Shown one piece after another: positions 15,974-59,329 of a stretch of DNA of 64,000 nt. A program made the position numbers and the translations under genes. The notes under the pieces are model-generated. The model was given only the letters and a program-made list of their open reading frames with translations, made no database searches and was not told where the DNA came from. The first letter of the stretch is position 1. Each line of letters begins with the position of its first letter. The DNA comes from Ensifer sp. PDNC004 (GTDB lineage: Bacteria; Pseudomonadota; Alphaproteobacteria; Rhizobiales; Rhizobiaceae): contig NZ_CP070354.1 of NCBI RefSeq assembly GCF_016919405.1, positions 566,001-630,000 on the forward strand. Reading direction: 5' to 3'.

Positions 15974-15987
15974 TTGACGGCCATCAA
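15974..15987. promoter_or_regulatory. FNR/FixK-type box TTGACGGCCATCAA
   Basis: Exact TTGA-N6-TCAA palindrome. Its centre is 72.5 nt upstream of the BON gene start on the minus strand, compatible with an activator at -41.5. Confidence 0.75.
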
Positions 15988-16140
15988 TCTTGCGTGCGAG
16001 CGTCTCGTTCAATTCGACGGAAGATGCTCGGCTACGTCGAGCAATGAGCCACGTCATAATCTATCGCTACTCGTAGCTTTCGGGTGCCACTTTCCGTCCG
16101 CCAGCGCGGAGCAAATTCGGCGGCAGGAATGGTGTTATCC

Positions 16141-16154
16141 TTGATACCCGTCAA
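16141..16154. promoter_or_regulatory. FNR/FixK-type box TTGATACCCGTCAA
   Basis: Exact TTGA-N6-TCAA palindrome centred 55.5 nt upstream of the small gene at 16203, leaving a leader of about 14 nt that just contains its ribosome-binding site. Confidence 0.75.
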
Positions 16155-16202
16155 TGCAGAAATTGCCCACCGTGGCAGACTGAAAGCAGACGGGAGGATT
16201 CG

Positions 16203-16406
16203 ATGGCACATCTCAAAAGCAGCCACGTTGAACATCGAGGCTACAGCTTCGAACTGATTCACTACGGCGCGGGTTGGCGCCTGCATATAATGCCAGGCCC
16301 GCGCCTTCCTTCAACGAACCCAGACCATGTCCTGGCCGACACTGTGGAGGATGCATTGACCAAAGCAAGAGCGATCGTCGATCATCACTTCCAAGGCAGA
16401 GGTTGA
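16203..16406 (+). CDS. Small conserved-looking protein behind an FNR-type box
   Basis: A 67-residue soluble protein rich in histidine and aromatic residues (YSFELIHYGAGWRLHIMPG, then a helix DTVEDALTKARAIVDHHF). A GGGAGGA ribosome-binding site sits 5 nt before the ATG and an FNR-type box 55 nt upstream, both supporting real expression. The family is not recognised. The strand-then-helix pattern suggests one compact alpha/beta domain. Confidence 0.65.
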   Translation: MAHLKSSHVEHRGYSFELIHYGAGWRLHIMPGPRLPSTNPDHVLADTVEDALTKARAIVDHHFQGRG

Positions 16407-17046
16407 AGGCGTCTGCCCCATTCAGTGCGTCGTTGCATAGATCGGCATGGGGCTGGCCGGTTGGGAGAATATGCTGTTGGCTGCAGGGCTCTATTTGCTG
16501 CCGCCAGGCGAACAAAAGGCGGCGCTTTCGACGATGGAACCAGTAGGTTCGACCGACCAATTCGTCGAACCTCACTCCGGTAGAATGGTTCGTCGTCTCC
16601 CAAACCGTCCGGGCATGATGCACCGTTCGTTCGTGCCGTTCATGGACCGACCCACGGTGGATCTCGATCCCCAGGCGCCGAAAACCTTATGGGATCACAT
16701 GCCTGCAACGCCGCCCATGTTGTCCTGCCGCTTCATCGATGAAATTGAGGAGCTTTTGCGACCGCGAGACCTTCATGACCCGGGACACGATTTTGGCGCC
16801 AGCTACACCTTGACCCAGAGGCCCGGCTCGCTTGGCCTCGTCATCGATATTGTTGTTCTCGCGACGCTCTTGCGATGTCGATAGCGATTGTCGCGCGTCT
16901 GTGGCTACGACCATTAATTTAGGGCCGTCAATCGGTGAAACACTGCTTGGAGGAGAATAATGGGTAGCATGCCGGCGAAACGACCGAATACAGCGCGGCA
17001 AGTCTCCGGCAGCGTGTTCGGTATATCCTGCTGTTGAGGCGCTGCC
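16407..17046. other. 640-nt stretch with only doubtful frames
   Basis: A plus-strand frame (16447-16884) lacks a ribosome-binding site and family resemblance. A minus-strand frame 16914-16687 (75 residues, with NNNIDDEAKRAGPLG and SRVMKVSRSQKLLNFIDEA) looks more protein-like but is unsupported by context. A one-mismatch FNR-like site (TTTAGGGCCGTCAA, 16921-16934) lies next to its start. Probably degenerate DNA. Confidence 0.35.
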
Positions 17047-22957: not shown

Positions 22958-23893
22958 CTAAACCGGTCCGCCTGGCAACCAGCCTTCACCGTAGTTCGCA
23001 AACACATCCTCGCGCCTGCAGAGCTCCCCTGCCGGCGCCATTACCGCTGCCGCACCGGCGGCAACGCCGAAGCGAAATGCATCTTCCATTGACCCACCTG
23101 CCTCAAGGAACCATACAAGTCCACCAATGAAGCTGTCTCCGGCGCCCACCGTGGATTTGGCGACGACATGCTTCGTTGGCACGCGCAAGGTGCCGAAATC
23201 GCCTGCGAGTAATGCACCCTCGCGGCCGAGGGTGACTGCGACGAATTGCGAGGCACCGTCCCTTACCAATGCGGACGCCGTCTTTGCGACGCCACCCTCG
23301 TCCAGTCGGCAGCCCGCAAGAACCTCAAGCTCCTCAAGGCTCGGCTTGATGAGGAAGACTGGAGCCTTGCCCAGTGTGTCACACAACGTCTTTCCAGGGC
23401 AATCAAGGATGACCTTGGTCCCCTTTTTGCCTGCACATCTGGCAATCTCGGCGTAGACGTCGGCGGGCGCGTTACGCGGGAGGCTGCCGCTTGCAACCAG
23501 ATAGTTTCCCTGGAATTCGTCAACGACCTGCAAGACTGCACGAACGTCGCCTGCAGCAATTTCGGGACCTTCCGGCACAAAACGATACTCAAGCCCGGTT
23601 TCTTCTTCATGCACCATAAAGGCGATGCGGGTGGATCCCGTTATTTTTACAGAGTGGATGCGGATGGCCGTTGCAGCGAGAGCATCATTGAGTATCGCAC
23701 CCGTCGCGCCACCTTGCAGAACCACCAGTTCTGCGCTACCGCCCAGCGTTGCGATGACCGCTGCGACATTGACACCACCGCCGCCTGGACGCTGTTGCAC
23801 ATTGCGTGTGCGCACCTTGATGGTCGGGTGAATGCGCGTTGCATGGCTCGAAACATCGACGGTGGGGTTGAGTGCGATCGCGAGAACGGCCAT
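22958..23893 (-). CDS. PfkB-family sugar kinase (1-phosphofructokinase-like)
   Basis: A 311-residue ribokinase-fold kinase: N-terminal LNPTVDVSS, glycine pair RPGGGGVNVA, and the C-terminal anion-hole/catalytic-base motif STVGAGDSFIGG with the aspartate. Length and motifs match the LacC/FruK/PfkB hexose-phosphate kinase group. The ATG at 23893 follows the CBS-BON stop by 4 nt, so it is the second gene of a two-gene operon driven from the FNR-type box at 24648-24661. It likely phosphorylates fructose 6-phosphate or another sugar phosphate when oxygen is low, as PfkB does in the mycobacterial DosR regulon. Confidence 0.88.
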   Translation of the reverse strand: MAVLAIALNPTVDVSSHATRIHPTIKVRTRNVQQRPGGGGVNVAAVIATLGGSAELVVLQGGATGAILNDALAATAIRIHSVKITGSTRIAFMVHEEETGLEYRFVPEGPEIAAGDVRAVLQVVDEFQGNYLVASGSLPRNAPADVYAEIARCAGKKGTKVILDCPGKTLCDTLGKAPVFLIKPSLEELEVLAGCRLDEGGVAKTASALVRDGASQFVAVTLGREGALLAGDFGTLRVPTKHVVAKSTVGAGDSFIGGLVWFLEAGGSMEDAFRFGVAAGAAAVMAPAGELCRREDVFANYGEGWLPGGPV

Positions 23894-23897
23894 CGTT

Positions 23898-24590
23898 TCA
23901 CCGGTGAGGGCGTGAAATTTTGCAATCGGCCTCGTTGATGACGCGCAGTTCATTTCTCACGCCCCCGATCCCGCATACGGTTTCTGCGGCAACACGAGCA
24001 GCCAGGCGTTTGACGCCGCTTTCGACACTGCCGCACAGTGCAACGACACCGCCCTCCACCCTGACGTCGACAGTGCCTGCATCAAGATTGAGATCGGATA
24101 GGAGGCGCGCCATTACTGCACGCCTGATGGCTTCGTCACCGGTGGCAAACCGCTCGGGCTTGGAAGAAAGGACAACCTCGAGAATGTCGCGACGGCTCAC
24201 GATCCCAAGCAGGCGGCCCCGTTGGACAACGGGAACACGCTTGATTGCGTGCGTGGCCATCAGCGCTGCGATCTGGTCCACGGATGCGTCCGCTTCTACC
24301 GTAACCGGGTTTTTGGTCATGACGTCTCCGACGCGCCAACTGTGCGTCTTGATATAAGTTTCGGGACCCTGTCGAAGACGGTTGCCCGTCTCTTTAAGCG
24401 TTGACGATCCCAACTCCGAGCGGCGTAGCAAATCCCCCTCGGACAGGATACCGACGATGTTTCCTTCGTCGTTGCAGACGGGCAAGCCGCTAACCCGATT
24501 GTCGAGCATCAGTCGTGCGGCATGTCGCACACTATGTTCGGGGCTCAGGGTTATGACCCTTCTGGTCATGATGTCCGAAGCATGCATCTG
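23898..24590 (-). CDS. CBS-pair plus BON-domain protein
   Basis: A 230-residue cytoplasmic protein with two CBS motifs (about 1-55: MHASDIMTRRVITLSPEHSV, SGLPVCNDEGNIVGILSEGD; and about 75-130: VGDVMTKNPVTVEADASVDQ, KRVPVVQRGRLLGIVSRRDI) and a C-terminal BON domain (about 165-225). CBS pairs bind adenine nucleotides, so it may sense energy charge. The start at 24590 is set by the FNR-type box at 24648-24661, which lies 64 nt upstream and directly abuts the longer 24641 start. First gene of an operon with PfkB. Confidence 0.9.
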   Translation of the reverse strand, partial: QMHASDIMTRRVITLSPEHSVRHAARLMLDNRVSGLPVCNDEGNIVGILSEGDLLRRSELGSSTLKETGNRLRQGPETYIKTHSWRVGDVMTKNPVTVEADASVDQIAALMATHAIKRVPVVQRGRLLGIVSRRDILEVVLSSKPERFATGDEAIRRAVMARLLSDLNLDAGTVDVRVEGGVVALCGSVESGVKRLAARVAAETVCGIGGVRNELRVINEADCKISRPHR

Positions 24591-24647
24591 CGACCCCGTA
24601 AGAAAATCTCGATCTGCGCAATATATCTCAACGGCTGGCATCGGAGA

Positions 24648-24661
24648 TTGACGCCGATCAA
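24648..24661. promoter_or_regulatory. FNR/FixK-type box TTGACGCCGATCAA
   Basis: Exact TTGA-N6-TCAA palindrome centred 64 nt upstream of the CBS-BON start on the minus strand. It has the same 14-nt sequence as the box at 59145-59158. Confidence 0.8.
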
Positions 24662-24706: not shown

Positions 24707-24720
24707 TTGATCGCCATCAA
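24707..24720. promoter_or_regulatory. FNR/FixK-type box TTGATCGCCATCAA
   Basis: Matches the classic FNR consensus TTGAT-N4-ATCAA. It faces the phasin-like/cytochrome genes on the plus strand; GATAGG at 24741-24746 lies where a -10 element is expected. It is 59 bp centre to centre from the box serving the divergent CBS-BON operon. Confidence 0.78.
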
Positions 24721-24822: not shown

Positions 24823-25218
24823 ATGCAACGAGCAAATCTGCATCAATCGAGCGCGCCTTTTTGGTTCGTTCTCTCCCCATTACCCTCGATCGAAATGATG
24901 GGCTCCGTGTGGTCGCTCTGGCATATGCAGGCGGGGTCCATCGAGGCCACCCTTCGTTATCAGATTGAGGCGTTGAAGTTCTTGCAAAGCCGTCTCCACA
25001 GCGACTTGTGCCTGTTGGAAGATTGTCAATCGCCCGATCACCAAAACGATCTGTTCGATATATGGTGCACCTACTGGCAAGACGCATTGTTGGACTACAA
25101 CAGCGCAGGCGCGCGCTTTGCAGATATAGGCTCGGCCATCATACGCAAGGCGGCAAGGCGACTTCACGATGACGAGAAACGTCTGGTCGAAAACACGGCT
25201 GCACAGGTGGTACTCTAG
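24823..25218 (+). CDS. Phasin-like helical protein
   Basis: A 131-residue, mainly helical protein. The C-terminal half (YWQDALLDYNSAGARFADIG, RKAARRL) resembles phasin_2 proteins that coat polyhydroxyalkanoate granules. The start at 24823 is chosen because GGAG lies 8 nt upstream and the predicted transcript from the box at 24707 begins near 24755, after the longest possible start. It abuts the cytochrome c gene (TAG then ATG), so they share a transcript. PHA storage fits a low-oxygen regulon, but the family call is tentative. Confidence 0.55.
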   Translation: MQRANLHQSSAPFWFVLSPLPSIEMMGSVWSLWHMQAGSIEATLRYQIEALKFLQSRLHSDLCLLEDCQSPDHQNDLFDIWCTYWQDALLDYNSAGARFADIGSAIIRKAARRLHDDEKRLVENTAAQVVL

Positions 25219-25554
25219 ATGCTGACGACCTTACCATCGGAGCGAACCAAAGCCTTGCAGGTTGCCGCCGTCTTTTTGTTGCTGCTCGGAGATCAAAGCA
25301 GCGCGGCCGATCTTGCGCACGGTCGCGCCATCGCCAATCGATGGTGCAGTGAATGTCACGTGACAGGCCCCGGACAGCAACGCGGATCAGACAATGTTCC
25401 CACATTCTCCGAAATGAAAAAATCGGGCAAACTGGATGCTGCCCGCTTGTCGGCATTCCTGTCGGCGCCTCAGCATTCACGGATGCCCGATCTCTCGCTA
25501 ACACGCGCCGAAATTTCTGACCTGGCCGCCTATATCAAGTCGCAGGGACACTAG
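25219..25554 (+). CDS. Class I c-type cytochrome
   Basis: A 111-residue exported monoheme cytochrome. The signal segment is VAAVFLLLLGDQSSA (to about residue 29), the heme site is C43-S-E-C-H (RWCSECHVTGPG) and the likely axial methionine is in SRMPDLSLT, followed by the C-terminal helix ISDLAAYIKSQ. It acts in the periplasm as an electron carrier. It begins one base after the phasin-like gene's stop with AGGTGG upstream, so it belongs to the same FNR-boxed operon. Its redox partner is unknown. Confidence 0.9.
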   Translation: MLTTLPSERTKALQVAAVFLLLLGDQSSAADLAHGRAIANRWCSECHVTGPGQQRGSDNVPTFSEMKKSGKLDAARLSAFLSAPQHSRMPDLSLTRAEISDLAAYIKSQGH

Positions 25555-30629: not shown

Positions 30630-30643
30630 TTGACGCTGATCAA
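30630..30643. promoter_or_regulatory. FNR/FixK-type box TTGACGCTGATCAA
   Basis: Exact TTGA-N6-TCAA palindrome centred 81.5 nt upstream of the kinase-fusion start on the minus strand. Confidence 0.75.
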
Positions 30644-30701: not shown

Positions 30702-30715
30702 TTGACGGTCGTCAA
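30702..30715. promoter_or_regulatory. FNR/FixK-type box TTGACGGTCGTCAA
   Basis: Exact palindrome serving the divergent plus-strand DUF3775 gene (start 30830, 121 nt from centre). TACGAA at 30734-30739 lies near the expected -10 position. Confidence 0.75.
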
Positions 30716-32484: not shown

Positions 32485-32498
32485 TTGACCACCGTCAA
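32485..32498. promoter_or_regulatory. FNR/FixK-type box TTGACCACCGTCAA
   Basis: Exact palindrome centred 69.5 nt upstream of the minus-strand Usp start. Forty-two bp centre to centre from the groEL box. Confidence 0.78.
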
Positions 32499-32526: not shown

Positions 32527-32540
32527 TTGACGCCCATCAA
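32527..32540. promoter_or_regulatory. FNR/FixK-type box TTGACGCCCATCAA
   Basis: Exact palindrome centred 58.5 nt upstream of groEL. GCTAGA at 32561-32566 sits near the expected -10. No CIRCE or sigma-32 element was noticed, so this groEL copy appears to be oxygen- rather than heat-controlled. Confidence 0.78.
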
Positions 32541-43362: not shown

Positions 43363-43376
43363 TTGACGCGCGTCAA
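43363..43376. promoter_or_regulatory. Symmetric FNR/FixK-type box TTGACGCGCGTCAA
   Basis: A perfect palindrome, preceded by a CG dinucleotide run, centred 58.5 nt upstream of the serine-protease start on the minus strand. Confidence 0.78.
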
Positions 43377-43977: not shown

Positions 43978-45579
43978 TCAAGCGTCCTCGTTTAGTGCCC
44001 GCCGCACGCGGCGAATGACCACGGCCCGGGCTTTGTCGTCGGCTGCTTTTGCCAATTCCGCTTGCAAGTCGAGTACCAGCGATTGCAGATCGTTGTTCCA
44101 GTCCATCCGCCCCGCGCGAAGTGGATCGATGCGTGGCGGGGCGACGCCTTCAACTATCTCGACGGCTCCCTTCGCTTCCAGTCGGAACGAGGCATCCAAA
44201 CGGGGACGAACCACCTTGTCCGGTCGAAGGAACGTCTGAAGCCGCTGTCTCATTCCCTCCAGAGCCGCATCCTCCCCATGCACAAGAAAGACCCCGGCGC
44301 CGATCGGCTCGCGCGCCTGCACCCATTCTGCCAGCTCCCTGCCATCGGCATGCCCGCTATAAATATCCAGCTTCCTGATGCGTGCACGGACGCGTATGTC
44401 CTCGCCTTGGATGCGCACCACCGAGGCCCCGTCCTCAAGAATGCGTCCCAAGGTACCGGCGGCCTGGTAACCGACAAGGAGCACGGTCCCCTCGTCTCGC
44501 CAAAGCCAGTTCTTCAGGCGATGCCTTATGCGACCGGCCTCACACATTCCGCTGGCGGCAATCACGATGTGAAAGCCTTTCATGAAATCGATTGCTTTCG
44601 ATTGCTCCGGGGTCTCGGTGAAACGCACGTTCTTCGCTTGAAGGGCCTTGGCAAGCAGCTCCCCGTTCTCCAGTTCCCGCGCATGCCGTCGAAAAATTTC
44701 GCTCGCGCGTGTCGCCAGAGGCGAGTCGATGACGATCGGACATCTCTCGATTTTGCCGGTATCCATTAGATAAACGAGATCTGTGAGAAGCTCCTGAGTT
44801 CGTTCCACCGCGAAGGATGGAACGATCAAGGCGCCGTTTGGATGGGTCGCCTCCATGACCACCGTACGCAAAATGCGCCGTCTGGTTTCGTCGGTTGCAT
44901 CTTCGCGCTCGACGTCGCCGTAGGTGCTCTCGCAAACGATATAGTCCCAGCCGGTCGGCGCGGCCGCGTCGTATTGCAGAAGCTTGTGACGTGGGCCGAT
45001 GTCTCCGGAAAAGAGCAATCGGAGAGGCGTCGGTGCCGTGTCGAGCTCGACTTCGACGGACGCCGAACCGAGCAGGTGACCCGCATTCCAGAACCGAAAC
45101 CGTATTCCCTCGGCCGCCGTCTCCCATTTGCCAAGCAGAACTTGCCTGAAGAGCGTGACCGCCGCTGCTGCATCATGGGCATCGTAAATTGGCGTCACAG
45201 GTTGCCGCCCGCGTCTGAGGTTTCGGCGGTTGAGCTGATCGACTTCACTTTCCTGAATATGCGCGGAGTCTGGCAGCATGACGGAACACAGATCGGCCGT
45301 GCCCGGCGTTGCGAAAATCGGGCCGCCGTACCCAAGTTTGGCGAGCTTCGGCAAGAGGCCGGAGTGGTCGATGTGCGCATGCGTCAGGATCACAGCGTCG
45401 ATGCTGTCGACATCGAAGGGCAACGGACGATAGTTGAGTTCTTTTTCGGTCTTCGACCCTTGAAACAGCCCGCAATCGATCAGAACCTTCGTTTCGCCGA
45501 ACTCAAGCAGGTGGCAGGAACCGGTGACGGTGCCTGCGGCCCCGTGAAAATGAAGGAGCGGTTGAGTATTCATCGACAT
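43978..45579 (-). CDS. MBL-fold beta-CASP hydrolase (RNase/CPSF-like)
   Basis: A 533-residue metallo-beta-lactamase/beta-CASP protein. It has the active-site motifs HAHIDHSG (motif 2), GHLLGSASVE (motif 3), FSGDIG (motif 4), beta-CASP segments VPSFAVERTQEL and ASGMCEAGRI, and the C-terminal RMK-type DIYSGHADG. Relatives are RNA or DNA endo/exonucleases (YSH1/CPSF73-like). Starts at 45579 and 45573 are both possible. It follows the carbamoyltransferase-like gene by 66 nt on the same strand and shares its FNR-type box. Likely an RNase shaping message turnover in low oxygen. Confidence 0.9.
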   Translation of the reverse strand: MSMNTQPLLHFHGAAGTVTGSCHLLEFGETKVLIDCGLFQGSKTEKELNYRPLPFDVDSIDAVILTHAHIDHSGLLPKLAKLGYGGPIFATPGTADLCSVMLPDSAHIQESEVDQLNRRNLRRGRQPVTPIYDAHDAAAAVTLFRQVLLGKWETAAEGIRFRFWNAGHLLGSASVEVELDTAPTPLRLLFSGDIGPRHKLLQYDAAAPTGWDYIVCESTYGDVEREDATDETRRRILRTVVMEATHPNGALIVPSFAVERTQELLTDLVYLMDTGKIERCPIVIDSPLATRASEIFRRHARELENGELLAKALQAKNVRFTETPEQSKAIDFMKGFHIVIAASGMCEAGRIRHRLKNWLWRDEGTVLLVGYQAAGTLGRILEDGASVVRIQGEDIRVRARIRKLDIYSGHADGRELAEWVQAREPIGAGVFLVHGEDAALEGMRQRLQTFLRPDKVVRPRLDASFRLEAKGAVEIVEGVAPPRIDPLRAGRMDWNNDLQSLVLDLQAELAKAADDKARAVVIRRVRRALNEDA

Positions 45580-45645
45580 GTGCCTTGTTCTGATTGCGGG
45601 GTCATGTGCCATGAAAGGTCTTCCGTTCAGTCGCAAGTCTGTAGA

Positions 45646-46668
45646 TTAGGCCGGCGGCTCTGATGGGCCCCGTCGGTCGGCAAGTGTCGCCACAAGAAGC
45701 GCCTTGGCTGCATGCATGCGATTTTCAGCCTGATCGAAGACGATCGAGGATTTGGATTCAAACACACCGTCGCACACTTCCATGCATTCGACGCCGAAAC
45801 GCTTGGCGATACGGGCGCCCGCCTCGTCTTCCCGGCAATGCCAGGCGGGAAGACTGTGCATCAGCTTCGTTTGTGGGTTATCGGTCGCCTCCATAACATT
45901 CTCTCTGACGGCAAAGGGCGCAAGCTGTCTCACCCGTTCGGCCCAACGCACGTCCGTGTCGCCAAACCACGGCGCCGTGCAGATAAAGTCTGCCCCGAGA
46001 ATACCGGTGCCGACGTGCTCAAGTACCGCTATCCTGCCGCCGCTATCCCTTGCAGCCGAAGTCACATTTTCAATGAAGGACGCCTCCGGCCAGAAACTCG
46101 GCGGTGAAACGATGCGAAGGTCGATGCCGAGTTTTGAGGAAGCCACGGCCAGTGATCGAGCGACGTTGCTGCGTCCATCCCCAAGGAAGGCCACGATCAT
46201 GCCATCGAGAGGCTTCTCACTGCATTCCTGCATCGTCACGAGGTCGGCCAAAGTCTGGGTGGGGTGTGACGTGTCGGTCCCTCCATTCAAGACGGGCACA
46301 CACGCCCATTTGGCGACCTCTTCGACGACGGATTGGGAACGCCCAATATATCCGATTGCATCATAAAGCCGGTCGAGAAAACGGGCCGTGTCCTTGATCG
46401 ATTCCCGATAGCGCGTGTGACCGGCTGATGGTCCGATCAAGGTCACGTTGGCACCTTGGTCGTAGGCAGCGACTTCAAAGGCCGCGCGCGTATGGATCGA
46501 ATCCTGTTCGCATAACAGAACGACGTTCCTGGTGCTCAGTTGCTTGAGCTCGGTTCCACTCCGCCTTTCTTCCTTGAGGGTGCCGGCAAGCCGAAGCAGA
46601 TAGTGGATTTCATCGGCAGTCAGGTCGTCAAGGGAAAGCACGCTACGACCACGAAGATCGATCGACAT
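45646..46668 (-). CDS. Ornithine-carbamoyltransferase-like protein with altered active site
   Basis: A 340-residue aspartate/ornithine carbamoyltransferase-fold protein. Retained are SHPTQTLADL and the overall length. The carbamoyl-phosphate motif STRTR is SIHTR, the ornithine-loop DVWVSMG is TAPWFGD, and MHCLPA is MHSLPA. These changes make normal ornithine transcarbamylase activity doubtful; a different amine substrate or a non-catalytic role is possible. The ATG at 46668 has AAGGAG 9 nt upstream; the longer frame overlaps the FNR-type box at 46733-46746. First gene of an operon with the beta-CASP hydrolase. Confidence 0.85.
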   Translation of the reverse strand: MSIDLRGRSVLSLDDLTADEIHYLLRLAGTLKEERRSGTELKQLSTRNVVLLCEQDSIHTRAAFEVAAYDQGANVTLIGPSAGHTRYRESIKDTARFLDRLYDAIGYIGRSQSVVEEVAKWACVPVLNGGTDTSHPTQTLADLVTMQECSEKPLDGMIVAFLGDGRSNVARSLAVASSKLGIDLRIVSPPSFWPEASFIENVTSAARDSGGRIAVLEHVGTGILGADFICTAPWFGDTDVRWAERVRQLAPFAVRENVMEATDNPQTKLMHSLPAWHCREDEAGARIAKRFGVECMEVCDGVFESKSSIVFDQAENRMHAAKALLVATLADRRGPSEPPA

Positions 46669-46732: not shown

Positions 46733-46746
46733 TTGATGCTCGTCAA
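46733..46746. promoter_or_regulatory. FNR/FixK-type box TTGATGCTCGTCAA
   Basis: Exact TTGA-N6-TCAA palindrome centred 71.5 nt upstream of the carbamoyltransferase-like start (minus strand). It could also serve the plus-strand gene at 46885, 145 nt away. Confidence 0.75.
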
Positions 46747-47350: not shown

Positions 47351-48091
47351 CTAAGCGTTCTGTTTCACGGTGCGCGCACTGAATACATAGCCCACTCCGC
47401 GGACGGACTTGATGAACTCGGGACGGCGGGGGTCTCTCTCGATCTTCCTGCGTAACCGCGCTATCTGGGCGTCGATTACGCGGTCGAAGGCCTCCAGCGA
47501 TCTGCCGCGCGTCAAATCCATCAACATATCCCTATTGAGGACGCGGCCGGCATGTCTCACGAGAGTGCACAGCATGTCGAACTCGGCCGTTGTCAAGGCG
47601 ATCTCGCGACCGTCTTCAGATGTCAACCGACGACGGGAAACGTCGAGGCGCAAGCCTTCGAAACAGAAGGTTTCGCTTGTTTCATTCTCCTGAATCGACA
47701 CGACTCTAGGTCGATGACGGCGAAGTGCACCTCTTACGCGTGCCAGAACCTCACGAAGGTGGAATGGCTTCGTGACATAGTCGTCGGCCCCGATTTCCAG
47801 GCCAACCACACGATCAACCACGTCGTCCCGGCCGGTCAGCATGATGATGGGAATATCGGAATGGGCGCGAAGCTCACGGGCGAGCGACAGCCCATCCTCT
47901 CCAGGGAGCCCCAGATCGAGCAAAACGATGTCCACATGGGCCTTATCGAGCCTGTCTCGCATTTCGCGGCCATCACCGGCAAGGCTAACCCGATAGCCTT
48001 CCCCTTCGAAGTAGCGTGACAACATCTGCCTTATGCGTGGATCGTCGTCCACAACCAGAACGAGTTCCGGCTCGCTTCTAGCGTTTGCCAT
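47351..48091 (-). CDS. OmpR-family response regulator (orphan)
   Basis: A 246-residue regulator with receiver acidic pocket D15-D17, phospho-acceptor D59 (VLLDLGLPGEDG), the switch segment MLTGRDDVVDRV, lysine in VTKPF, and a winged helix with VIDAQIARLRRKIE. No kinase is adjacent. It is divergent from the FixK-like regulator, with 138 nt between start codons, so the two may control each other. Target genes are unknown. No exact FNR-type box lies in the shared spacer. Confidence 0.92.
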   Translation of the reverse strand: MANARSEPELVLVVDDDPRIRQMLSRYFEGEGYRVSLAGDGREMRDRLDKAHVDIVLLDLGLPGEDGLSLARELRAHSDIPIIMLTGRDDVVDRVVGLEIGADDYVTKPFHLREVLARVRGALRRHRPRVVSIQENETSETFCFEGLRLDVSRRRLTSEDGREIALTTAEFDMLCTLVRHAGRVLNRDMLMDLTRGRSLEAFDRVIDAQIARLRRKIERDPRRPEFIKSVRGVGYVFSARTVKQNA

Positions 48092-48228
48092 ACCTTTCCC
48101 CGAAGTTGGTCCACCGACATGCTGTTACATTCCGTTACACTATAGCACTATTTGTGGCAGATGCGTCGATGCCGGTTCACGCTCGGATGTTGAAATCCTC
48201 TACTCAGCGCCAGATGGAGGATGCGCGA

Positions 48229-48969
48229 ATGACCCTTCAATCAGTTGCTATCAATGGCGGTCTTGGAGCGTTGGAGTGCTCTCCTGCTGTCCCGGATCTA
48301 TCGTCGGTCTTCAGCTTCCAGCCGATCGTCGAAGCTGCGCCGGGTCAGGCGGTGTTTTGGGAAGGGGACGATGCCGGTTATGTTTTTCAGGTCGAAGACG
48401 GCATGCTGCGCGCATTGCGGCTGCTAACCGATGGTCGCCGGGTCATTGTCGGCTTCCTGCATCCCGGTGATCTCCTCGGCGTTTCTCTCAAGGACCGCTA
48501 TCTCTATACTGTCGAAGCGATAACCGAGGTGAGATTGCGGCGATATCCCCGCCGTCGCTTTGAAGACGAAGTGGCTCGTCAGCCGCACCTTCGAAACCAG
48601 CTGTTTTCCAAGCTATGCGATGAAATGACAGCGGCCCAGGACCAGGCGGTGCTGCTGTCGCGACGTAGCGCCGACGAGAAGGTTGCCAACTTCCTGCTTC
48701 TTATGGCGAAAAACCGGGACGGCGCAGCCACGGATCTCGTCGATCTACCGATGACGCGGCTCGATATTGCGGACTACTTGAACATGACAATCGAAACGGT
48801 ATCTCGAACCATAACGAAATTTGCAGGCATGGGCATCATCGCTGCGCCCGACCGGCGCTCGATCATCGTCTTGAAAAGACATATGCTTCAATCCATCGCG
48901 GATGGCGACGGTTGCGATCTTCGCCCAGATGCGATGTCGAATAGAGTTAGGCGAACTGATCTCGCCTGA
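48229..48969 (+). CDS. Crp/Fnr-family regulator of the FixK type
   Basis: A 246-residue regulator: cNMP-binding-like beta-roll (about 30-130, VFWEGDDAGYVFQVEDGMLR), dimer helix, and a winged helix with DIADYLNMTIETVSRTITKF. Recognition residues E189, S192 and R193 are those that read TTGA half-sites in FNR/FixK. There is no FNR-like cysteine cluster, only C17 in the N-terminal region, so it should not sense oxygen directly. The start at 48229 has GGAGG 8 nt upstream. It is the obvious candidate to bind the TTGA-N6-TCAA boxes of this island; that link is inferred. Confidence 0.9.
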   Translation: MTLQSVAINGGLGALECSPAVPDLSSVFSFQPIVEAAPGQAVFWEGDDAGYVFQVEDGMLRALRLLTDGRRVIVGFLHPGDLLGVSLKDRYLYTVEAITEVRLRRYPRRRFEDEVARQPHLRNQLFSKLCDEMTAAQDQAVLLSRRSADEKVANFLLLMAKNRDGAATDLVDLPMTRLDIADYLNMTIETVSRTITKFAGMGIIAAPDRRSIIVLKRHMLQSIADGDGCDLRPDAMSNRVRRTDLA

Positions 48970-48983: not shown

Positions 48984-49686
48984 ATGATAGCGCAAACTGT
49001 GGTCGGGAAAATCGTTGGTCTTCTTGAGGACGCGAATCTGATCGTCCATGGGACCGGCGGGCACGTCGGTCACTGGAGCAAGGGCTGCGAGCGACTTTAC
49101 GGTTGGCGCGAGGCTGACGCGCAAGGTGAGGTAGTTCACCACCTGCTTGAAACCTCATTCCCCGAGCCCATCGAGGACATCCACGCAAAAGTTCAACGAC
49201 ACGGGTCATGGTCCGGCGAACTGGCACAAAAGCGCAAGGATGAGAGCAAGGTCTTCGTTGCCAGCCTCTGGATCGGCCTCCATAGGCGTGGCAAAGGATC
49301 CACCGCCGGAGCGGGTCGCGCAAGGACACGAGACTATTCTCGTTGTCGAGGACGACGCCCGTGTACGCCGTATTGTGGTCGCGCGGCTTTTGGACGCGGG
49401 CTATGGCGTTGTGGAGGCCGGGTCCGGGGCTGAAGCGCTTCAGCGTCTCGCCGACCACCCGGAGATTTCTCTTGTGTTTACGGACATGGTGATGCCCGGC
49501 GGGATGACAGGCAACGAGCTTGCACACCACGTTCGAAGATTCCGCCCTGAGATGAAGATACTCGTGACATCGGGTGACGCCGCTCCGAGCCTTGCCAAAG
49601 AGAGGCTACCGGAAGGCGCCTCTTGGCTGCTCAAACCCTACACGGCGAGAAAACTCTCAAAACGTCTGCGAGAACTGCTCGATTGA
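48984..49686 (+). pseudogene. Collapsed hybrid sensor kinase: PAS segment fused out of frame to a receiver
   Basis: The first frame (48984 to about 49290) encodes a PAS domain: GHWSKGCERLYGWREADAQG, HGSWSGELAQKRKDESKVF, VASLWIGLHRR. The next frame (about 49287 to 49686) encodes PPPERVAQGHETILVVEDDA and a complete receiver with VFTDMVMPGG and LLKPYTARKL. The histidine-kinase core that joins these in hybrid kinases is absent and the two parts are in different frames, pointing to an internal deletion plus frameshift. The receiver could still be made on its own if reinitiation occurs. Confidence 0.7.
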
Positions 49687-49854: not shown

Positions 49855-49868
49855 TTGATTGCCGTCAA
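49855..49868. promoter_or_regulatory. FNR/FixK-type box TTGATTGCCGTCAA
   Basis: Exact palindrome centred 72.5 nt upstream of the Usp start at 49934. TAGATT at 49890-49895 is centred 31 nt away, the place expected for a -10 hexamer in a class II activated promoter. Confidence 0.82.
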
Positions 49869-49933: not shown

Positions 49934-50767
49934 ATGACATACAAAACCGTACTATTGGTGGTCGATGCCGATAATTATGATCTCGATCTGAGAACCGCGG
50001 CAGACCTTTGCATGGCCGGAAGCGCACATCTGTCTGTTCTTCTGGTCAGACTTGCTGCCCCCGTGCCACTTGGCGACTATGCCGCGATGTCGGTTGCGTG
50101 GCTTGACGTGCGCGCACAGGATGCCGAGAAACTCGGCGATGCCGTTACGAATTCCCGCGCAACGCTGGAAGGCCTTGGTATCTCGTTTGAAGTCGAGGGC
50201 TGCTACCCGGAGGAAGCGTGGGTCGAGGATGACATCGGCGAGCGCGCACGTTACGCCGACATGACACTGATTGGATCAAGCCTCGAAGCGAGCTCCCGGC
50301 TTCGTTCGCACGCAATTGAAGGTGCGCTTTTTCGTTCGGCCCACCCAGTCCTTCTGTCGGGCAACCGCCAGTCGGTGACGTTAGCACCGAAAAAGATCCT
50401 GCTTGCATGGAACTCCACCATCGAAGCCGCCAGAGCCGCACGCGAAGCGCTTGAGATGATGAAGGCCGCTGACAGCGTCAACGTGGTACTGGTCGATCCC
50501 ACGGCGGCGCCGGCAAGAAACGGAGAGGAACCGGGAGCCGATGTTGCGACTTACCTCGCCAGACACGGCATTAGGGTCACCGTTGACAGGCTCCCGAGCT
50601 CAGGCCGTCAGATCCATGAGGTGTTGATGCAGCATGCGCTCGACACCTCGGTCGACCTGATCGTTATGGGTGCCTATGGCCATTCGCGGGTTCGCGAACG
50701 CATGTTCGGTGGTGTGACGAAAGCCATGATCGAGGCACCCGCAGTGCCGGTGTTGATGGTCCATTGA
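49934..50767 (+). CDS. Universal stress protein, tandem-domain length
   Basis: A 277-residue Usp, paralogous to 39145-39975. It has a diverged N-terminal half (YKTVLLVVDADNYDLDLR, DIGERARYADMTLIG) and a C-terminal half with EEPGADVATYLARHGI and the ATP motif GAYGHSRVRERMFGGVTKAM. GGAG lies 8 nt before the ATG. It has its own FNR-type box. It likely binds ATP and supports survival during oxygen-limited arrest. Confidence 0.92.
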   Translation: MTYKTVLLVVDADNYDLDLRTAADLCMAGSAHLSVLLVRLAAPVPLGDYAAMSVAWLDVRAQDAEKLGDAVTNSRATLEGLGISFEVEGCYPEEAWVEDDIGERARYADMTLIGSSLEASSRLRSHAIEGALFRSAHPVLLSGNRQSVTLAPKKILLAWNSTIEAARAAREALEMMKAADSVNVVLVDPTAAPARNGEEPGADVATYLARHGIRVTVDRLPSSGRQIHEVLMQHALDTSVDLIVMGAYGHSRVRERMFGGVTKAMIEAPAVPVLMVH

Positions 50768-50832
50768 ACCATCGAACACAAGAAACAACAGGTGCGCCGC
50801 CTGGGAGCGGCACACCTTTCAGTTTTCAAGCT

Positions 50833-51285
50833 TCAAGTCTCACTCTCACAGCACGCCCGCCCGGTCATTTCAAGGACATCAATACTGAAGAACAGGTGCG
50901 GATAATGACCGGATATTTCCTGCGGAGCGGGCTTCAGGCCGCCCGGTTCCCACCAATTTGCTCTCTTTTCGAGAAGCGACCAGGCGTGCAGGTACTCGCG
51001 GTGCCACTGACCTGTCGGGGCAAGTTCCTGATAGCGCCCGTATATCACGACGCTTTTCCACTCGTTTCCTGAAACTGCGTCTATCTGCAGGCAAACATTG
51101 GGATTTTTACGCATCCAATCGATCTTCCGACCAGGCATGGAAAATGCATAAAGGCAATTTCCGGCGTAAGCATAGGTGATCGGTACGACATAGGGCTTGT
51201 TGTTCTCGCAACAGGCAAGGCGCCCCACGCGGCTCTCCTGAACAAGGCTGCTGCAATCGTGACGGGACATTTCCTTGATGATCAT
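50833..51285 (-). CDS. Pyridoxamine 5'-phosphate-oxidase-fold flavoprotein
   Basis: A 150-residue split-barrel protein of the PNPOx-like superfamily: RVGRLACCENNKPYVVPITY, FSMPGRKIDWMRKNPNVCLQ, SVVIYGRYQEL. Such proteins bind FMN or F420-type cofactors, or heme, and reduce small molecules; the exact cofactor cannot be read. AAGGAGG lies 7 nt upstream of the ATG at 51285. The FNR-type box at 51341-51354 serves this gene and the divergent BON gene. A PNPOx-like protein (Rv3127 type) is also part of the DosR regulon. Confidence 0.85.
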   Translation of the reverse strand: MIIKEMSRHDCSSLVQESRVGRLACCENNKPYVVPITYAYAGNCLYAFSMPGRKIDWMRKNPNVCLQIDAVSGNEWKSVVIYGRYQELAPTGQWHREYLHAWSLLEKRANWWEPGGLKPAPQEISGHYPHLFFSIDVLEMTGRACCESET

Positions 51286-51340
51286 GATCCACCTCCTTGG
51301 GCGAATGTCTCAAGATTAGATCCATAAACTTCATCCCGCT

Positions 51341-51354
51341 TTGACGCCCCTCAA
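51341..51354. promoter_or_regulatory. FNR/FixK-type box TTGACGCCCCTCAA shared by PNPOx-fold and BON genes
   Basis: TTGA-N6-TCAA, centred 62.5 nt from the PNPOx start (minus) and 73.5 nt from the BON start (plus). Position 10 is C, the only box in the set without G or A there. Confidence 0.75.
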
Positions 51355-51420
51355 AGACCCGTATCCGGCGGAGGCGCATACTTCGTTGCAGACTGGATGA
51401 AGAAACCTTCGGAGGCCGTC

Positions 51421-52077
51421 ATGAACGATAACAGTTTACGACAGGATATTCTCGACGAACTCGATTATGAGCCCAGCCTCGACGCCGCAAACATCGGCGT
51501 CACCGTTGAGAATGGAATAGTGACCCTGACTGGTCACGTCCACAGCTTCGCCGAAAAACACGCCGCCGAACAGGTTGCTCGACGGATAAGGGGTGTTCGG
51601 GCGATCGCGGAGGAAATCGCGGTGCGGTTGCCCGAGCACAAGAAAACTGCCGATGACGAGATCGCAAGCCGTGTTCTGAAGATCCTCGACTGGGGTGCGG
51701 CTATTTCCGATCTGAGCGATATTCAGGTGAAGGTTGAAAACGGGTTCGTCACACTCGCCGGCGCTGTCGACTTCTATTTTCAACGTTCGGCGGCCGAACA
51801 TTCCGTTCGCCAGCTCTCCGGTGTAACGGGGATCGATAACCAGTTGAGGATCCGGCCAAGGATGGATGTCGTCGATATTCGTCACGGCATCAAGCAGGCC
51901 TTGCGACGGAATGCCGAAATCGAGGCAGAGGACATCGAGGTTGAAGTCTCGGGCAACCACGTGACCCTGCGCGGGAAAGTCCAAAGCGCCCGAGAGCGTA
52001 TCACCGCCGAGCAGGCTGCCTGGTCCGCAAAAGGGGTGAGTGGGGTAACCGACTATCTGACGGTGTCCGACAAGTAG
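51421..52077 (+). CDS. Three-BON-domain protein, cytoplasmic
   Basis: A 218-residue protein of three BON repeats: about 5-68 (ANIGVTVENGIVTLTGHVHS), about 78-145 (IQVKVENGFVTLAGAV) and about 150-216 (IEVEVSGNHVTLRGKVQSAR). There is no signal peptide. The start at 51421 has GGAGG 5 nt upstream; a start at 51397 would leave only about 8 nt of leader after the predicted transcription start. The first repeat closely matches the BON protein at 15426-15908 (DELDxE, NGIVTLTG, RGVRxIAEE). Role unknown; likely binds lipid or another ligand. Confidence 0.88.
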   Translation: MNDNSLRQDILDELDYEPSLDAANIGVTVENGIVTLTGHVHSFAEKHAAEQVARRIRGVRAIAEEIAVRLPEHKKTADDEIASRVLKILDWGAAISDLSDIQVKVENGFVTLAGAVDFYFQRSAAEHSVRQLSGVTGIDNQLRIRPRMDVVDIRHGIKQALRRNAEIEAEDIEVEVSGNHVTLRGKVQSARERITAEQAAWSAKGVSGVTDYLTVSDK

Positions 52078-52108
52078 GCACTTTTGGTCAGCGTTCCTCC
52101 GAGGGCTC

Positions 52109-52260
52109 ATGATAGCCGACACTATCCCACTCAGCCTCACCCGGCGTCAAAAGGAAGACAATGGCTCTACGGGGCTCACGAGCGGGGAGGCCCGCAGCCG
52201 GTTGGCCAAGTGTGGTCCAAACGCCCTGCCCGAACCACGGGCAGGGTCGGTGGCCGAAGA
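52109..52260 (+). pseudogene. N-terminal remnant of a P-type cation ATPase
   Basis: The segment STGLTSGEARSRLAKCGPNA then LPEP is the start of the cation_ATPase_N domain of P-type ATPases. The frame breaks after about 50 codons and no actuator, P or N domain follows. The rest of the gap to 52532 is low-complexity coding-like debris in several frames. It lies directly after the three-BON gene. Confidence 0.6.
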
Positions 52261-52532
52261 CCAGCCGCAAACAGGAACGGACTGTTTTCAACCTCCGACA
52301 CGTACGCAACGATACCGCCAAGTCCGGAAATTCCGAAGGTTCGTATGCCGGCTGTCCGGCTGACTTCCGGCCTCTCCCTCTCGCACCACCCCCGCCTCCA
52401 ACCCGCCGAGAAGGCCAATTGCAAGTGCGAGCCCGAAACGAAGGAAAAGCGGTTCGATTTGCACTCTCCAAGGCGGCATACGTGCTGAGATCAAACCATC
52501 GCATTTGTGCTCAGCTAACTTCGATCATGTCT

Positions 52533-52546
52533 TTGACGATGATCAA
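52533..52546. promoter_or_regulatory. FNR/FixK-type box TTGACGATGATCAA
   Basis: Exact palindrome centred 54.5 nt upstream of the Usp at 52594, leaving a leader of about 13 nt with its GAGGAG site. Confidence 0.78.
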
Positions 52547-52593
52547 TGCTTGCGGTTTGGAAATGTATGAGGCTGTCCTGAGAGGAGTTTTCC

Positions 52594-53097
52594 ATGGATA
52601 ACCATATCCTGGTTGCAAGCGATGGATCCGATGAAGCGCGCGACGCCGTGGCGATGGCCGCAAAGTTTGCCAAGGCGATCGACGCTCCCCTGACCGTTCT
52701 CCACGTTGCCCCACCAAATTTTGCAAGCGCAACACAGAGCCTTCCCGGATTCGGACACGTTCTCCCAGTCGGCAACATGATCCCTGGCATGTCGAGGCCG
52801 GCAGGGGAACTTTCACGTACGCCCGGCGATGGAATCGATGAGAGTGCCATGATGCTCGGCAAGACAATTGCGGACGAAGCTCGAAATGTGGCACGTGGGC
52901 TCGGCGTCGAGAACGTCTCCGTGCGACTGGAAGTGGGCGACTGCGCCGAGACGATTCTTGAGACTGCAGCGGAGATCAGCGCAAGCTTGATCGTCGTTGG
53001 CAGCCGGGGCCTTGGGCGACTGAAGGGCATACTTCTCGGGAGTGTGTCGAAGAAGGTGGCTCAGGATGCGCAATGTTCGGTCCTTATCGTGCGTTGA
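52594..53097 (+). CDS. Universal stress protein, single domain
   Basis: A 167-residue classic one-domain Usp: N-terminal HILVASDGSDEARDA, a long insertion around residues 45-80, and the ATP motif GSRGLGRLKGILLGSVSKKV near the C-terminus, followed by CSVLIVR. It differs in architecture from the three double-length Usp proteins of this window. GAGGAG lies 7 nt upstream of the ATG and an FNR-type box 54 nt upstream. Probably an ATP-binding dimer in the cytoplasm. Confidence 0.93.
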   Translation: MDNHILVASDGSDEARDAVAMAAKFAKAIDAPLTVLHVAPPNFASATQSLPGFGHVLPVGNMIPGMSRPAGELSRTPGDGIDESAMMLGKTIADEARNVARGLGVENVSVRLEVGDCAETILETAAEISASLIVVGSRGLGRLKGILLGSVSKKVAQDAQCSVLIVR

Positions 53098-57038: not shown

Positions 57039-57120
57039 GCCGTTCTCCGTTCGCTTGACGCATGGCGATGGGTGCACGAACCTCGTGCACCCGCCCACGG
57101 GTCGTGGTCCATTTTCCGGC

Positions 57121-59061
57121 TCACGGCGTGTACCAGATCGGCGAGGTGTAGGCGCGCTCTGTCACAGTCATGCGCGTGCCTTCGAGCGCCTTCGTTCCGA
57201 AACGCTTGCCATCATAGGCCGTCCAGCGGGGGGTCGGGATCTCAAGGACGCGGCCATAGTAGAACGCCTTCTGGTTCGGGTCGAACTTGGGATCCTTCCA
57301 GACCGCGATCAGTTCGGGCGCGCCGATCGTATTGGTCCATGTGGCGTTTGCGACGTCGACCGTATCACCGACCGGTGGGACCTTGCCGTCCGCGCCCGGC
57401 TTGCGGCCCGCACTCCAGGCGACGTCATAGACCTGTTCATGTGTCTCGCCATTGCCGTCGAGCCAGCCTTTGACGATCTGGTAGCGGTCGAGATTGGCGC
57501 CGATCGGGTCCCGAAGCGCGGCGACGAGGAATGTGGGTGCCTTGCCCTCGGGCGCCTTCGTCAGGTCGCCACCCATCGGCACGCCCTTGGCATAGCCGAT
57601 AGCCCCGGGATTGCGGCCTTCGGCATCGGCCGGATCGAAGTCCCAGCCGGCGAAGAAGCGCACGAGCATACGCGGCCCAGTCGTCGCATAAGTCTCCTTG
57701 CGTTGCATGGCGTCCCAAATAGATTCGCGGGTATTCTCTTGTGCCCATACGGCCGCGTAACCGGATGCCCCGACTTCCCAGTCCATCACTGTGATGTTGG
57801 TCTTGGCGTCCTTAACGAAGGTCGCTGTCAGCCGTTCAGGGCTAGGTTCCTGCGGGGTCGTCTTGCCGAAGAAGTTGTCTTCTTCCATAGCCGCCAGACC
57901 TGTATGGGAGTCCGAGCTGCCCACCAGTCCGAACTTGTATGGGTTGGTGCCAAGCTGAGCTTCCAGCTTCAGGCCATTCTTGAGGGCGGAGCGCGCATAT
58001 TCGAATTCGAGCATCTCGGGTGTCTTGCGCTCGCTGGCATCGAGATTGCCGAAGTCCCAGATCTCGAAGCTGGCGAACTCATCATTGGGCGAAAGCGCCG
58101 GGTGCGCCTCGCCGGTGCCTTTGGTTTGGGTCGTCTCATAGAGGCGCTCCCAGCGGGAGCGTTGCTCGACGTAGTCCTTGTCCACCGGTTTGCCCGTGAA
58201 GGATTCGATCATTCGGAACATGCGCCCGTTGGACAAGTTACCGTTGTGTGCGATCGCCAGCACATTGCCGCCGGTCTTGTCCTCGTAAGCCTGCATCCAC
58301 TTCCACAGGTCGCGCGGGTTGTCGCTACCGAGTGGTTTTAGCGTCGTATAGGGTACGACCTGGCTCGCCTTGTCGGCGTTGTCGCGGAAGATGACGTTGC
58401 GGTGCAGGTTGTTGCCGGCCGTGTTCGAGGTCCATTCGTAGCCGATGAAAGCGGTAAAGTGGCCGGGCTCGTTGTATTCTTCGGCCGCCTTGATCGTATC
58501 CTGCCAGGCATTCTTGTAAGGGCGCGTGTCGGGTCCATAGATCATCGACGGCGGCAAGGTCCCCTTGCCGAAGCTGAAGATGATCTCCAGCGCGGCTTTT
58601 GCGCCCTGGCCGGACGTGATCATCTCGTACCAGCTCTTGGCCTGAGGGTCGGCGATGACGTCCGGCTTGCCGGCAAAGAGGTCTGGGAACATGCCCATAT
58701 TGTCAGAATGATCGGCGACCACAAGGAAGTCCAGTGGACGTGACAGCTTCGCCGGCTGACCACTCGACGCCATGATCTCCTCGCCGCGGGCAAAACGATA
58801 GGCATCGCGAGGGGTCAACCGCGCGCCAAAGGCTCCGGCGTCGAACGAGGCTCCGGTGTGAAGATGCGTGTCGCCGAACAGGGGGCGGGTCGGAAAACTG
58901 CGACCCGCATACGGCGAATAGAGGGGTTTTCTGGCGAAAGCCTTTTCGGCTTTGGCCACATCCAACGTACCGGTGTCTCCATGTTCCTGCGCTATCGCCG
59001 GGAGTGCTGGACCAAGGCTCAGCACACTTGCGAGGATGAATTTCGCAGAGGTGTTTTTCAT
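57121..59061 (-). CDS. DUF3604-family exported protein
   Basis: A 646-residue exported protein with a signal peptide (MKNTSAKFILASVLSLGPAL, cleavage near AIA-Q) and a DUF3604 domain over nearly its whole length. It has PHP-like metal-binding motifs: FGDTHLHTGASFDAG, VVADHSDNMGMFPD, IGYEWTSNTAGNNLHRNVIF and VGSSDSHTGLAA. The histidines and aspartates suggest a metal-dependent hydrolase of unknown substrate. The ATG at 59061 is chosen because the signal peptide starts there; an FNR-type box is centred 90.5 nt upstream. First gene of the DUF3604-PpiC-HupE operon. Confidence 0.92.
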   Translation of the reverse strand: MKNTSAKFILASVLSLGPALPAIAQEHGDTGTLDVAKAEKAFARKPLYSPYAGRSFPTRPLFGDTHLHTGASFDAGAFGARLTPRDAYRFARGEEIMASSGQPAKLSRPLDFLVVADHSDNMGMFPDLFAGKPDVIADPQAKSWYEMITSGQGAKAALEIIFSFGKGTLPPSMIYGPDTRPYKNAWQDTIKAAEEYNEPGHFTAFIGYEWTSNTAGNNLHRNVIFRDNADKASQVVPYTTLKPLGSDNPRDLWKWMQAYEDKTGGNVLAIAHNGNLSNGRMFRMIESFTGKPVDKDYVEQRSRWERLYETTQTKGTGEAHPALSPNDEFASFEIWDFGNLDASERKTPEMLEFEYARSALKNGLKLEAQLGTNPYKFGLVGSSDSHTGLAAMEEDNFFGKTTPQEPSPERLTATFVKDAKTNITVMDWEVGASGYAAVWAQENTRESIWDAMQRKETYATTGPRMLVRFFAGWDFDPADAEGRNPGAIGYAKGVPMGGDLTKAPEGKAPTFLVAALRDPIGANLDRYQIVKGWLDGNGETHEQVYDVAWSAGRKPGADGKVPPVGDTVDVANATWTNTIGAPELIAVWKDPKFDPNQKAFYYGRVLEIPTPRWTAYDGKRFGTKALEGTRMTVTERAYTSPIWYTP

Positions 59062-59144
59062 TGTTACCCTCCATGCCGGCACGATCGTATCGCGAAAGCC
59101 CGGCTCTCCGCCTTCAACGATCTCACACAGGGGCAATCACGACT

Positions 59145-59158
59145 TTGACGCCGATCAA
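59145..59158. promoter_or_regulatory. FNR/FixK-type box TTGACGCCGATCAA
   Basis: Exact palindrome centred 90.5 nt upstream of the DUF3604 start on the minus strand. Identical to the box at 24648-24661. Confidence 0.78.
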
Positions 59159-59315
59159 AATCACGCTGGCCGGATCGCTGGCGACGCCTTGTTGCGCGCT
59201 AATGCCACCTTAGTACTCGAGGGAGCGTCCATAACTTGCAAGGCCGCGGTCCACTGCCCGGCTAAAGGAAATGTCGGTTCCAATTCCCGCGCCATGTGCG
59301 CCGTTCGTTTGAACT

Positions 59316-59329
59316 TTGACTGGCGTCAA
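59316..59329. promoter_or_regulatory. FNR/FixK-type box TTGACTGGCGTCAA
   Basis: Exact palindrome centred 74.5 nt upstream of the dehydrogenase-GNAT fusion start at 59397. CACAAT at 59352-59357 lies near the expected -10 position. Confidence 0.8.

Follow-up and report, generated by a model that had tools for sequence, protein, structure and literature searches.

Seventeen predicted FixK/FnrN-type boxes mark a persistence-gene island of Ensifer sp. PDNC004

What controls a gene island in which the same short palindrome stands in front of most transcription units? The question is raised by a 64,000-nt stretch of Ensifer sp. PDNC004, a soil-dwelling relative of Ensifer adhaerens (NZ_CP070354.1, here contig C3; C3:566001-630000, hereafter the window), in which the exact palindrome TTGA-N6-TCAA, called the box or anaerobox below, occurs seventeen times between positions 15974 and 59329. 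As a whole, the explanation that fits best, and that we regard as very probable, is that the boxes are predicted FixK/FnrN-type sites for class II activators and that persistence genes spread over more than 43 kb are under low-oxygen control through an hFixL-FxkR-FixK/FnrN chain. Gene labels were taken from Pfam and NCBIfam; genes were called by codon usage, a GC-position filter having proved useless.

Analysis of the box distribution showed a strong local excess over chance, as the initial annotation had claimed. All seventeen boxes listed there are present, compared to a mean of 0.84 in 100 shuffles of the window (maximum, 4; none at 17), and the first 15.9 kb of the window, which had been described as empty, holds none. 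Across the genome (three contigs, 6.78 Mb), the box occurs at 124 places compared to 27 for a reversed control pattern, and 17 of these 124 are packed into 0.64% of the genome (binomial p, ~9e-18). Similarly, 17 of the 29 boxes on C3 (833,710 b) lie inside 43.4 kb (binomial p, ~4e-15). Comparison of the density inside and outside the island by these genome and C3 counts revealed no equal density elsewhere in the genome. The island extends beyond the window: 2.8 kb after its last base comes an 18th intergenic box, C3:632790, whereas a box at C3:633173 sits in a predicted open reading frame (ORF) and may be there by chance. The former (L140:2790) is flanked by an MscS-like gene on one side and, on the other, by an uncharacterised gene that polyphosphate kinase 2 follows. 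From its plasmid homologues, C3 appears to be a plasmid. A tRNA-bounded island is unsupported, as zero tRNA genes were found in the window.

The base composition reported for the set was reproduced, with C in 13 and T in 4 boxes at position 5, and G in 9, A in 7, and C in 1 at position 10. Beyond the core, C stands two bases before TTGA in 16 of the 17 boxes and G two bases after TCAA in 14. A new box type was ruled out, since these extra flanking bases agree with the published consensus TTGANCNNGATCAANG (PMC4999443). The claim that all boxes are non-coding held for 16 of 17 with a mechanical gene caller; it failed for 46733 only if the longest TTG start of the ornithine carbamoyltransferase (OTC) gene is used, and this box is also non-coding if OTC starts at a downstream Met, near the start of the OTC family match (46668). 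Likewise, the claimed spacing of mostly 54 to 90 nt from box centre to start codon was borne out, at 54 to 91 nt, in 15 of 19 hand-assigned box-gene pairs, the remaining pairs being at 49.5, 106.5, 121.5, and 149.5 nt. The boxes do front most genes: of 28 transcription units called, 20 begin within 260 nt of a box, and these comprise 34 of the 45 genes, both neighbours of divergent pairs being scored. Boxes upstream of genes above chance are what membership in a FixK/FnrN regulon entails.

Are the boxes conserved, and do they stand where an activator would need them? Two E. adhaerens plasmid islands (NZ_CP118612 and NZ_CP084488; loci L001 and L002) share collinear blocks of more than 900 b at 82 to 93% identity with the window, and every alignable box is conserved, 13 of 13 in each. 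The core bases of these boxes are identical at 104 of 104 positions in each plasmid, compared to 787 of 1007 and 805 of 1036 positions (~78%) in the 40-nt flanks. The remaining four boxes per plasmid fall outside the fetched or aligned parts, and the stretch with boxes 30630 and 30702 is missing from L002. Boxes 32485 and 32527 are also alignable and conserved in S. psoraleae (L031) and Ensifer sp. USDA 6670 (L032). A TATAAT-like hexamer peaks 29.5 to 34.5 nt downstream of the box centre (offset 29; mean, 2.79 of 6 in the 19 hand-assigned pairs), and none of 1000 shuffles matched 2.79 at any offset. For a box centre at -41.5, this offset places the hexamer at -12 to -7, which by sequence is class II geometry. 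Direction-free scans put the -10-like peak at 29 in both E. adhaerens loci, at 28 and then 29 for 13 boxes of S. meliloti (modest; robust z, 2.7), and at 28 for 155 boxes of 80 phosphoenolpyruvate (PEP)-synthase loci (z, 4.5); it was not found at 12 other C3 boxes or at 14 control palindromes. In B. japonicum fixK1, the axis of the FixK box is at -41/-40 (PMC3596328). The earlier suggestion of an FNR/FixK dimer at -41.5 therefore fits by the -10 hexamer spacing, the conservation of the box cores, and the presence of FixK-like and FnrN genes. Taken together, the box excess, core conservation, and -10 spacing mean that these are very probably working FixK/FnrN sites.

These results also bear on whether chance, or the composition of AT-richer DNA, could have produced the boxes. 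The GC content of the island is indeed below that of the neighbouring bins, at 0.56 to 0.60 in 5-kb bins from 560 to 645 kb compared to 0.61 to 0.64 in the remaining bins examined (540 to 660 kb). Such an origin is refuted by the shuffles of the window itself, the conserved cores, and the fixed -10 spacing, and retains next to no probability.

Which regulators would act on the boxes? The island encodes a FixK-type CRP/FNR regulator (48214..48969, plus strand) that has an FNR-like E-x2-S-R recognition helix and lacks the four FNR cysteines; its closest solved relative is FixK2. Divergent from it is an FxkR-like OmpR-type response regulator (47351..48091, minus strand), full length with receiver and DNA-binding domains. 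Between the two genes, upstream of fixK, lies a predicted FxkR site, the K-box GTTACA-N4-GTTACA (48124..48139, plus strand; sequence GTTACATTCCGTTACA). This pattern occurs twice in the whole genome (control pattern, once) and is the reported FxkR consensus (PMC7888657, PMC4999443). The third gene of an hFixL-FxkR-FixK module is present as a broken hFixL-like hybrid sensor kinase (48987..49686, plus strand), in which an internal deletion has left residues ~1 to 97 and the C-terminal receiver part. An intact hybrid FixL with PAS, kinase, and receiver parts is thus missing from the window. FixLJ was set aside as the driver because the best FixJ match scored 180 bits, under the cut-off of 255. A NifH profile search of the genome gave five partial matches, two of them above the Pfam cut-off (33.4 and 28.8 compared to 25 bits); as these span no more than 70 of 271 positions and the control genomes match likewise (14 of 14), they are no evidence of nitrogenase.

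A second hFixL-FxkR-FixK module was found on contig C1 at ~945.9 to 949.7 kb. Its FixK paralogue is 78% identical to that of the window, and it has its own K-box at 946823 and boxes at 945868 and 949691. The C1 hFixL is full length (629 aa; PAS, HisKA, HATPase, and receiver), and its residues 109 to 255 match a solved FixL (6.8e-47), the top solved match being named only Histidine kinase. The C1 FxkR-like gene (G000:C1:946450-946836; L151 ~16450-16836) retains only residues 116 to 244 of 246 in an open frame of 127 aa. What is left is the DNA-binding half at the C terminus; the K-box, fixK, and hFixL next to it are intact, and the damage mirrors that in the window. Genome-wide, hFixL is matched at full length on C1 alone, and the FxkR-like regulator is matched at full length and above 48% identity on the island alone; the runner-up regulator shares 48% identity, and further kinases align only from residue 230 to 246 onward. 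The two modules are damaged in complementary fashion, the island being without an intact sensor and C1 without the receiver half of the regulator. This means that the cascade, if working, must signal between replicons, as we infer that it does. It is tentatively proposed, with nearly even chances of being right, that after duplication of the module a reciprocal loss wired a portable, self-regulated dormancy island across replicons, so that an oxygen sensor on one would command a regulator on another and, by way of it, the regulon.

The boxes, their conservation, the -10 spacing, the regulators, the K-boxes, and the reciprocal damage can all be read from the sequence; from them the following chain may be put together. 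Falling oxygen would activate the C1 hFixL hybrid kinase, the island copy being broken, and this kinase would phosphorylate the FxkR-like regulator of the island, the C1 copy being without its receiver half. FxkR at the K-boxes would then turn on both fixK genes. The boxes would be bound by FixK and, once oxygen has fallen further, by the iron-sulphur regulator FnrN, both as CRP/FNR dimers centred at about -41.5 of ordinary promoters. In this way, the island genes would be activated, those for universal stress proteins (USPs), chaperones, PEP synthase, and proteases along with those for the ATPase inhibitor and dehydrogenases. The oxygen response and the assignment of proteins to particular boxes are the inferred parts of this scheme.

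The FnrN gene lies on C2, the largest contig, at ~630.7 kb. It encodes the four cysteines of a predicted Fe-S cluster (Cys 18, 21, 29, and 117) and is preceded by two boxes 37 nt apart. A COX1-family gene is ~10 kb away, and a further box precedes the COX1 match by 334 nt. As a direct oxygen sensor, FnrN might itself be the main user of the boxes, with both hFixL-FxkR modules decaying and the FixK route minor. The internal deletion of the island hFixL and the truncation of the C1 FxkR-like gene would agree with this, as would the cysteine set, the two upstream boxes, and the helix core TIETVSR, which FnrN and the window FixK have in common. In addition, FnrN drives an Hsp20 gene in R. leguminosarum UPM791, where this gene has an anaerobox and is induced ~50-fold at low oxygen (PMC11784457). 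On the other hand, the fixK gene and the K-box of each module survive, as do a single full-length hFixL and a single full-length FxkR-like gene, and box-dense surroundings track FixK across the genus. A leading role for FnrN is thus unlikely, albeit a serious candidate.

Could a different CRP/FNR protein, an NnrR/DNR-like regulator responding to nitric oxide or nitrogen, be the main user instead? Other CRP/FNR genes with E-x2-S-R helices exist in the genome (L004 and L005), and the related S. meliloti region responds to polyhydroxybutyrate (PHB)/nitrogen state (PMC5596199). However, the NnrR motif TTG-N8-CAAA (PMC5596199) has fewer fixed positions than the TTGA/TCAA cores (PMC2908626), and the local regulator is FixK, which makes a regulator of this kind improbable. 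As a separate observation, three exact copies of TTGACAGCTGTCAA surround another CRP/FNR gene at G000:C1:1071658-1076788 (L153, L004), and this sequence is also present in genomes G001 and G002.

What lies behind the boxes? All gene identities below are family matches. At the left end, box 15974..15987 points towards a BON gene (minus strand; box centre 72.5 nt from the start) and box 16141..16154 towards a small plus-strand ORF (55.5 nt), both outside the aligned E. adhaerens stretches fetched. Box 24648..24661, which is not among the hand-assigned pairs, is conserved in both E. adhaerens loci. Box 24707..24720 lies between genes for a PfkB-family kinase and a CBS-BON protein (22958..24641, minus) and those for a hypothetical protein and cytochrome c (24895..25554, plus). 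Boxes 30630..30643 and 30702..30715, both conserved in L001, point towards a kinase-like gene (minus) and a DUF3775 gene (plus), respectively. The product of the former gene (29041-30555) is large and combines aminoglycoside phosphotransferase (APH)-like with AAA parts. In a relative, it carries the annotation aminoglycoside phosphotransferase/ATP-binding; in this setting, a role in stress is likelier than one in resistance. Box 32485..32498 points towards a USP gene (31616..32422, minus; 69.5 nt) and 32527..32540, 42 nt from it, towards genes for a GroEL paralogue and ATPase inhibitor subunit zeta (32592..34557, plus). The zeta gene (34240-34557) is directly behind the anaerobox-fronted groEL paralogue, an order shared by L001, L002, and L031, and this position suggests that ATP synthase may be braked under low oxygen. 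A single box (37021..37034) lies between PEP synthase (34585..36963, minus; 64.5 nt) and glucokinase (37091..38047, plus; 63.5 nt).

Farther along, box 38390..38403 is upstream of a unit for Hsp20, a USP, and a baeRF12/Host_attach protein (38546..40455, plus), box 43363..43376 of a unit for DegP/HtrA-type and M50-CBS proteases (40823..43311, minus), and box 46733..46746 of a unit for OTC and a beta-CASP/RMMBL metallo-hydrolase (43978..46668, minus). In the cluster for a USP, a PNPOx-like protein, a triple-BON protein, and a USP (49934..53097), boxes 49855..49868 and 52533..52546 are upstream of the USP genes (plus), and a single box (51341..51354) lies between the PNPOx-like (minus) and triple-BON (plus) genes. 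Like 37021, box 51341 is at near-equal distance to two divergent genes and apparently serves both; these two boxes are conserved in both E. adhaerens loci. Finally, 59145..59158 is upstream of a DUF3604/rotamase/HupE unit (minus) and 59316..59329 of a fusion of Zn-dependent alcohol dehydrogenase with a GNAT domain (59397..61013, plus), both boxes being conserved in L002 and unaligned in L001. Outside the island, the box-free segment 6272-10078 carries TauE/SafE, DUF6691, metallo-beta-lactamase (MBL)-fold, AhpC/TSA, and ArsR-type genes. We take it to resemble a BigR-type sulphide-detoxification cluster.

How far does this arrangement extend among relatives? The minimum tblastn coverage per query was 50% for PEP-synthase loci and S. 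meliloti, 40% for the C1 and FnrN loci (two ABC families also being dropped there), and 60% for the surroundings of FixK in the genus. In 80 PEP-synthase loci (1.5 Mb), the best 80 of at least 589, there were 155 boxes compared to 13 for the control, and the richest loci include Mesorhizobium, Ensifer, and Paraburkholderia. Among the 52 loci of at least 20 kb, those with more of the other island families also had more boxes (Spearman 0.67; p, 5e-8; control, -0.09), 28 of the 80 being shorter and five families, the search query included, being left out. Within the genus, a close FixK was found in 6 of 16 genomes (nine matches). All 7 K-box hits in the 16 genomes are within 170 nt upstream of a FixK-like match, and 7 of the 9 matches have one, the two without being G009:C1:128862 and G008:C26:215256. 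Counts of TTGA-N6-TCAA-NG were 75 to 124 in the six FixK-bearing genomes compared to 53 to 99 in the others (one-sided p, 0.0017). Ten 20-kb stretches around FixK genes in five other genomes, one of which is represented by the L001 plasmid, held 64 boxes compared to 1 for the control; E. adhaerens L001 and genus genome G006 apparently contain the same plasmid (equal length; hFixL, 100%). One FixK gene of G009, with the GroEL-type surroundings, is on a 3.7-Mb contig; the contigs or plasmids elsewhere measure 0.10 to 1.57 Mb. Full-length hFixL matches were found at L001/L179, L177, L002, L181, and L185, with 617 of 629 residues at L186; L173 and L183 align only from residue ~111 to 116, and L184 gave no match.

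Comparison with known systems places the island among low-oxygen loci. The E. adhaerens islands differ in that their hFixL is full length and the copy in the window is broken; in addition, L001 has a P-type ATPase and MgtC near a USP. With the S. meliloti pSymA region, the window shares Hsp20, M50, DegP, MBL, FxkR-like, FixK-like, PAS kinase, USP, PNPOx, and BON genes as well as the K-box, and the 49.5 kb fetched contain 13 boxes compared to 0 for the control. Identity is lower there (FixK, 66%), and no passing match to the window GroEL, zeta inhibitor, PEP synthase, glucokinase, PfkB, or OTC was found in the 49.5 kb fetched. From its place on pSymA, we take SMa1141 to be this 66% relative. 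In S. meliloti, FixK-motif density peaks in a 120-kb pSymA region that includes SMa1141, a putative Fnr/Crp regulator, and that region also has nitrogen-fixation, FixLJ, and denitrification genes (PMC5596199), whereas here FixJ is below the cut-off and NifH partial. Furthermore, 39 putative FixK boxes are given for pSymA in a table crediting Bobik 2006 (PMC3596328), and SMa1147 and SMa1158 are listed as FixJ-activated stress genes (PMC13327599). Because this motif density has already been published, a box-dense island is not categorically new. No publication on this island in E. adhaerens was among the matches listed in a search with most subscription journals outside its reach.

In its content, the island resembles low-oxygen persistence loci. 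It encodes USPs, Hsp20, a GroEL paralogue, ATPase inhibitor zeta, PEP synthase, glucokinase, a PfkB kinase, CBS-BON and BON proteins, DegP- and M50-type proteases, a beta-CASP hydrolase, OTC, cytochrome c, a P-type ATPase, and Zn-dehydrogenases, and thus has the combination that characterises an lxa-type locus, in which several USPs occur together with Hsp20, BON, CBS, and metabolic genes. The lxa locus of B. cenocepacia is a low-oxygen-induced cluster with six USPs, alpha-crystallin, a BON protein, and phosphofructokinase and is reported as required for anoxic persistence (PMC6127331); it is betaproteobacterial, and the likeness is drawn from its published description. This locus (PMC6127331, PMC9104464) and DosR, mentioned there, are functional parallels. 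Two Paraburkholderia PEP-synthase loci have 6 boxes each. The hFixL-FxkR-FixK-FnrN chain is known in R. leguminosarum (PMC7888657), and the cascade there and in R. etli shares the gene types, the K-box, the anaerobox, and fnrN behind two anaeroboxes; in Ensifer sp. PDNC004, in contrast, two modules with complementary damage are on two contigs, beside a large persistence island.

Some observations weigh against low-oxygen control through this chain. First, 8 of the 28 units are boxless (an LPG-synthase-type gene, an ABC/NMT1 operon, an alcohol dehydrogenase/DUF5335 unit, a 41-codon ORF, the P-type ATPase, the FxkR-like gene, fixK, and the hFixL remnant), and box 24648 is without a clear target. 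Second, the -10 test rested on hand-assigned targets, and most other loci peak at 28, those of Burkholderiales likewise being at 28 rather than 29. Third, the window FixK scores 150 bits on the NCBIfam FixK model NF050806, under the cut-off of 300, so that it is labelled FixK-type and not as that equivalog. Fourth, the K-box pattern has 7 hits in the 16 genomes compared to 6 for the backwards control; since this count is not above control, position is the sole support for the K-box. Fifth, a genome that has the module can hold as few as 75 boxes and one that lacks it as many as 99, so that the two groups overlap, and counts from related genomes are not independent samples. Other candidates are also available, namely, the CRP/FNR proteins L004 and L005, other kinases (47% over residues 239 to 629), and another OmpR-type regulator (48%). 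Finally, the S. meliloti effect comes from nitrogen-limited mutants of the PHB cycle (PMC5596199), and in view of this setting other signals may act.

The island is a compact, densely marked, predicted low-oxygen survival regulon. With FixJ below the cut-off and the NifH matches unconvincing, the persistence role of a FixK cascade may be studied here apart from symbiosis. Its patchy presence (a close FixK in 6 of 16 genus genomes) on varied contigs would suit it to studies of how a whole regulon can move together, and the reciprocal damage of its two modules offers a natural test of a phosphorelay between replicons.

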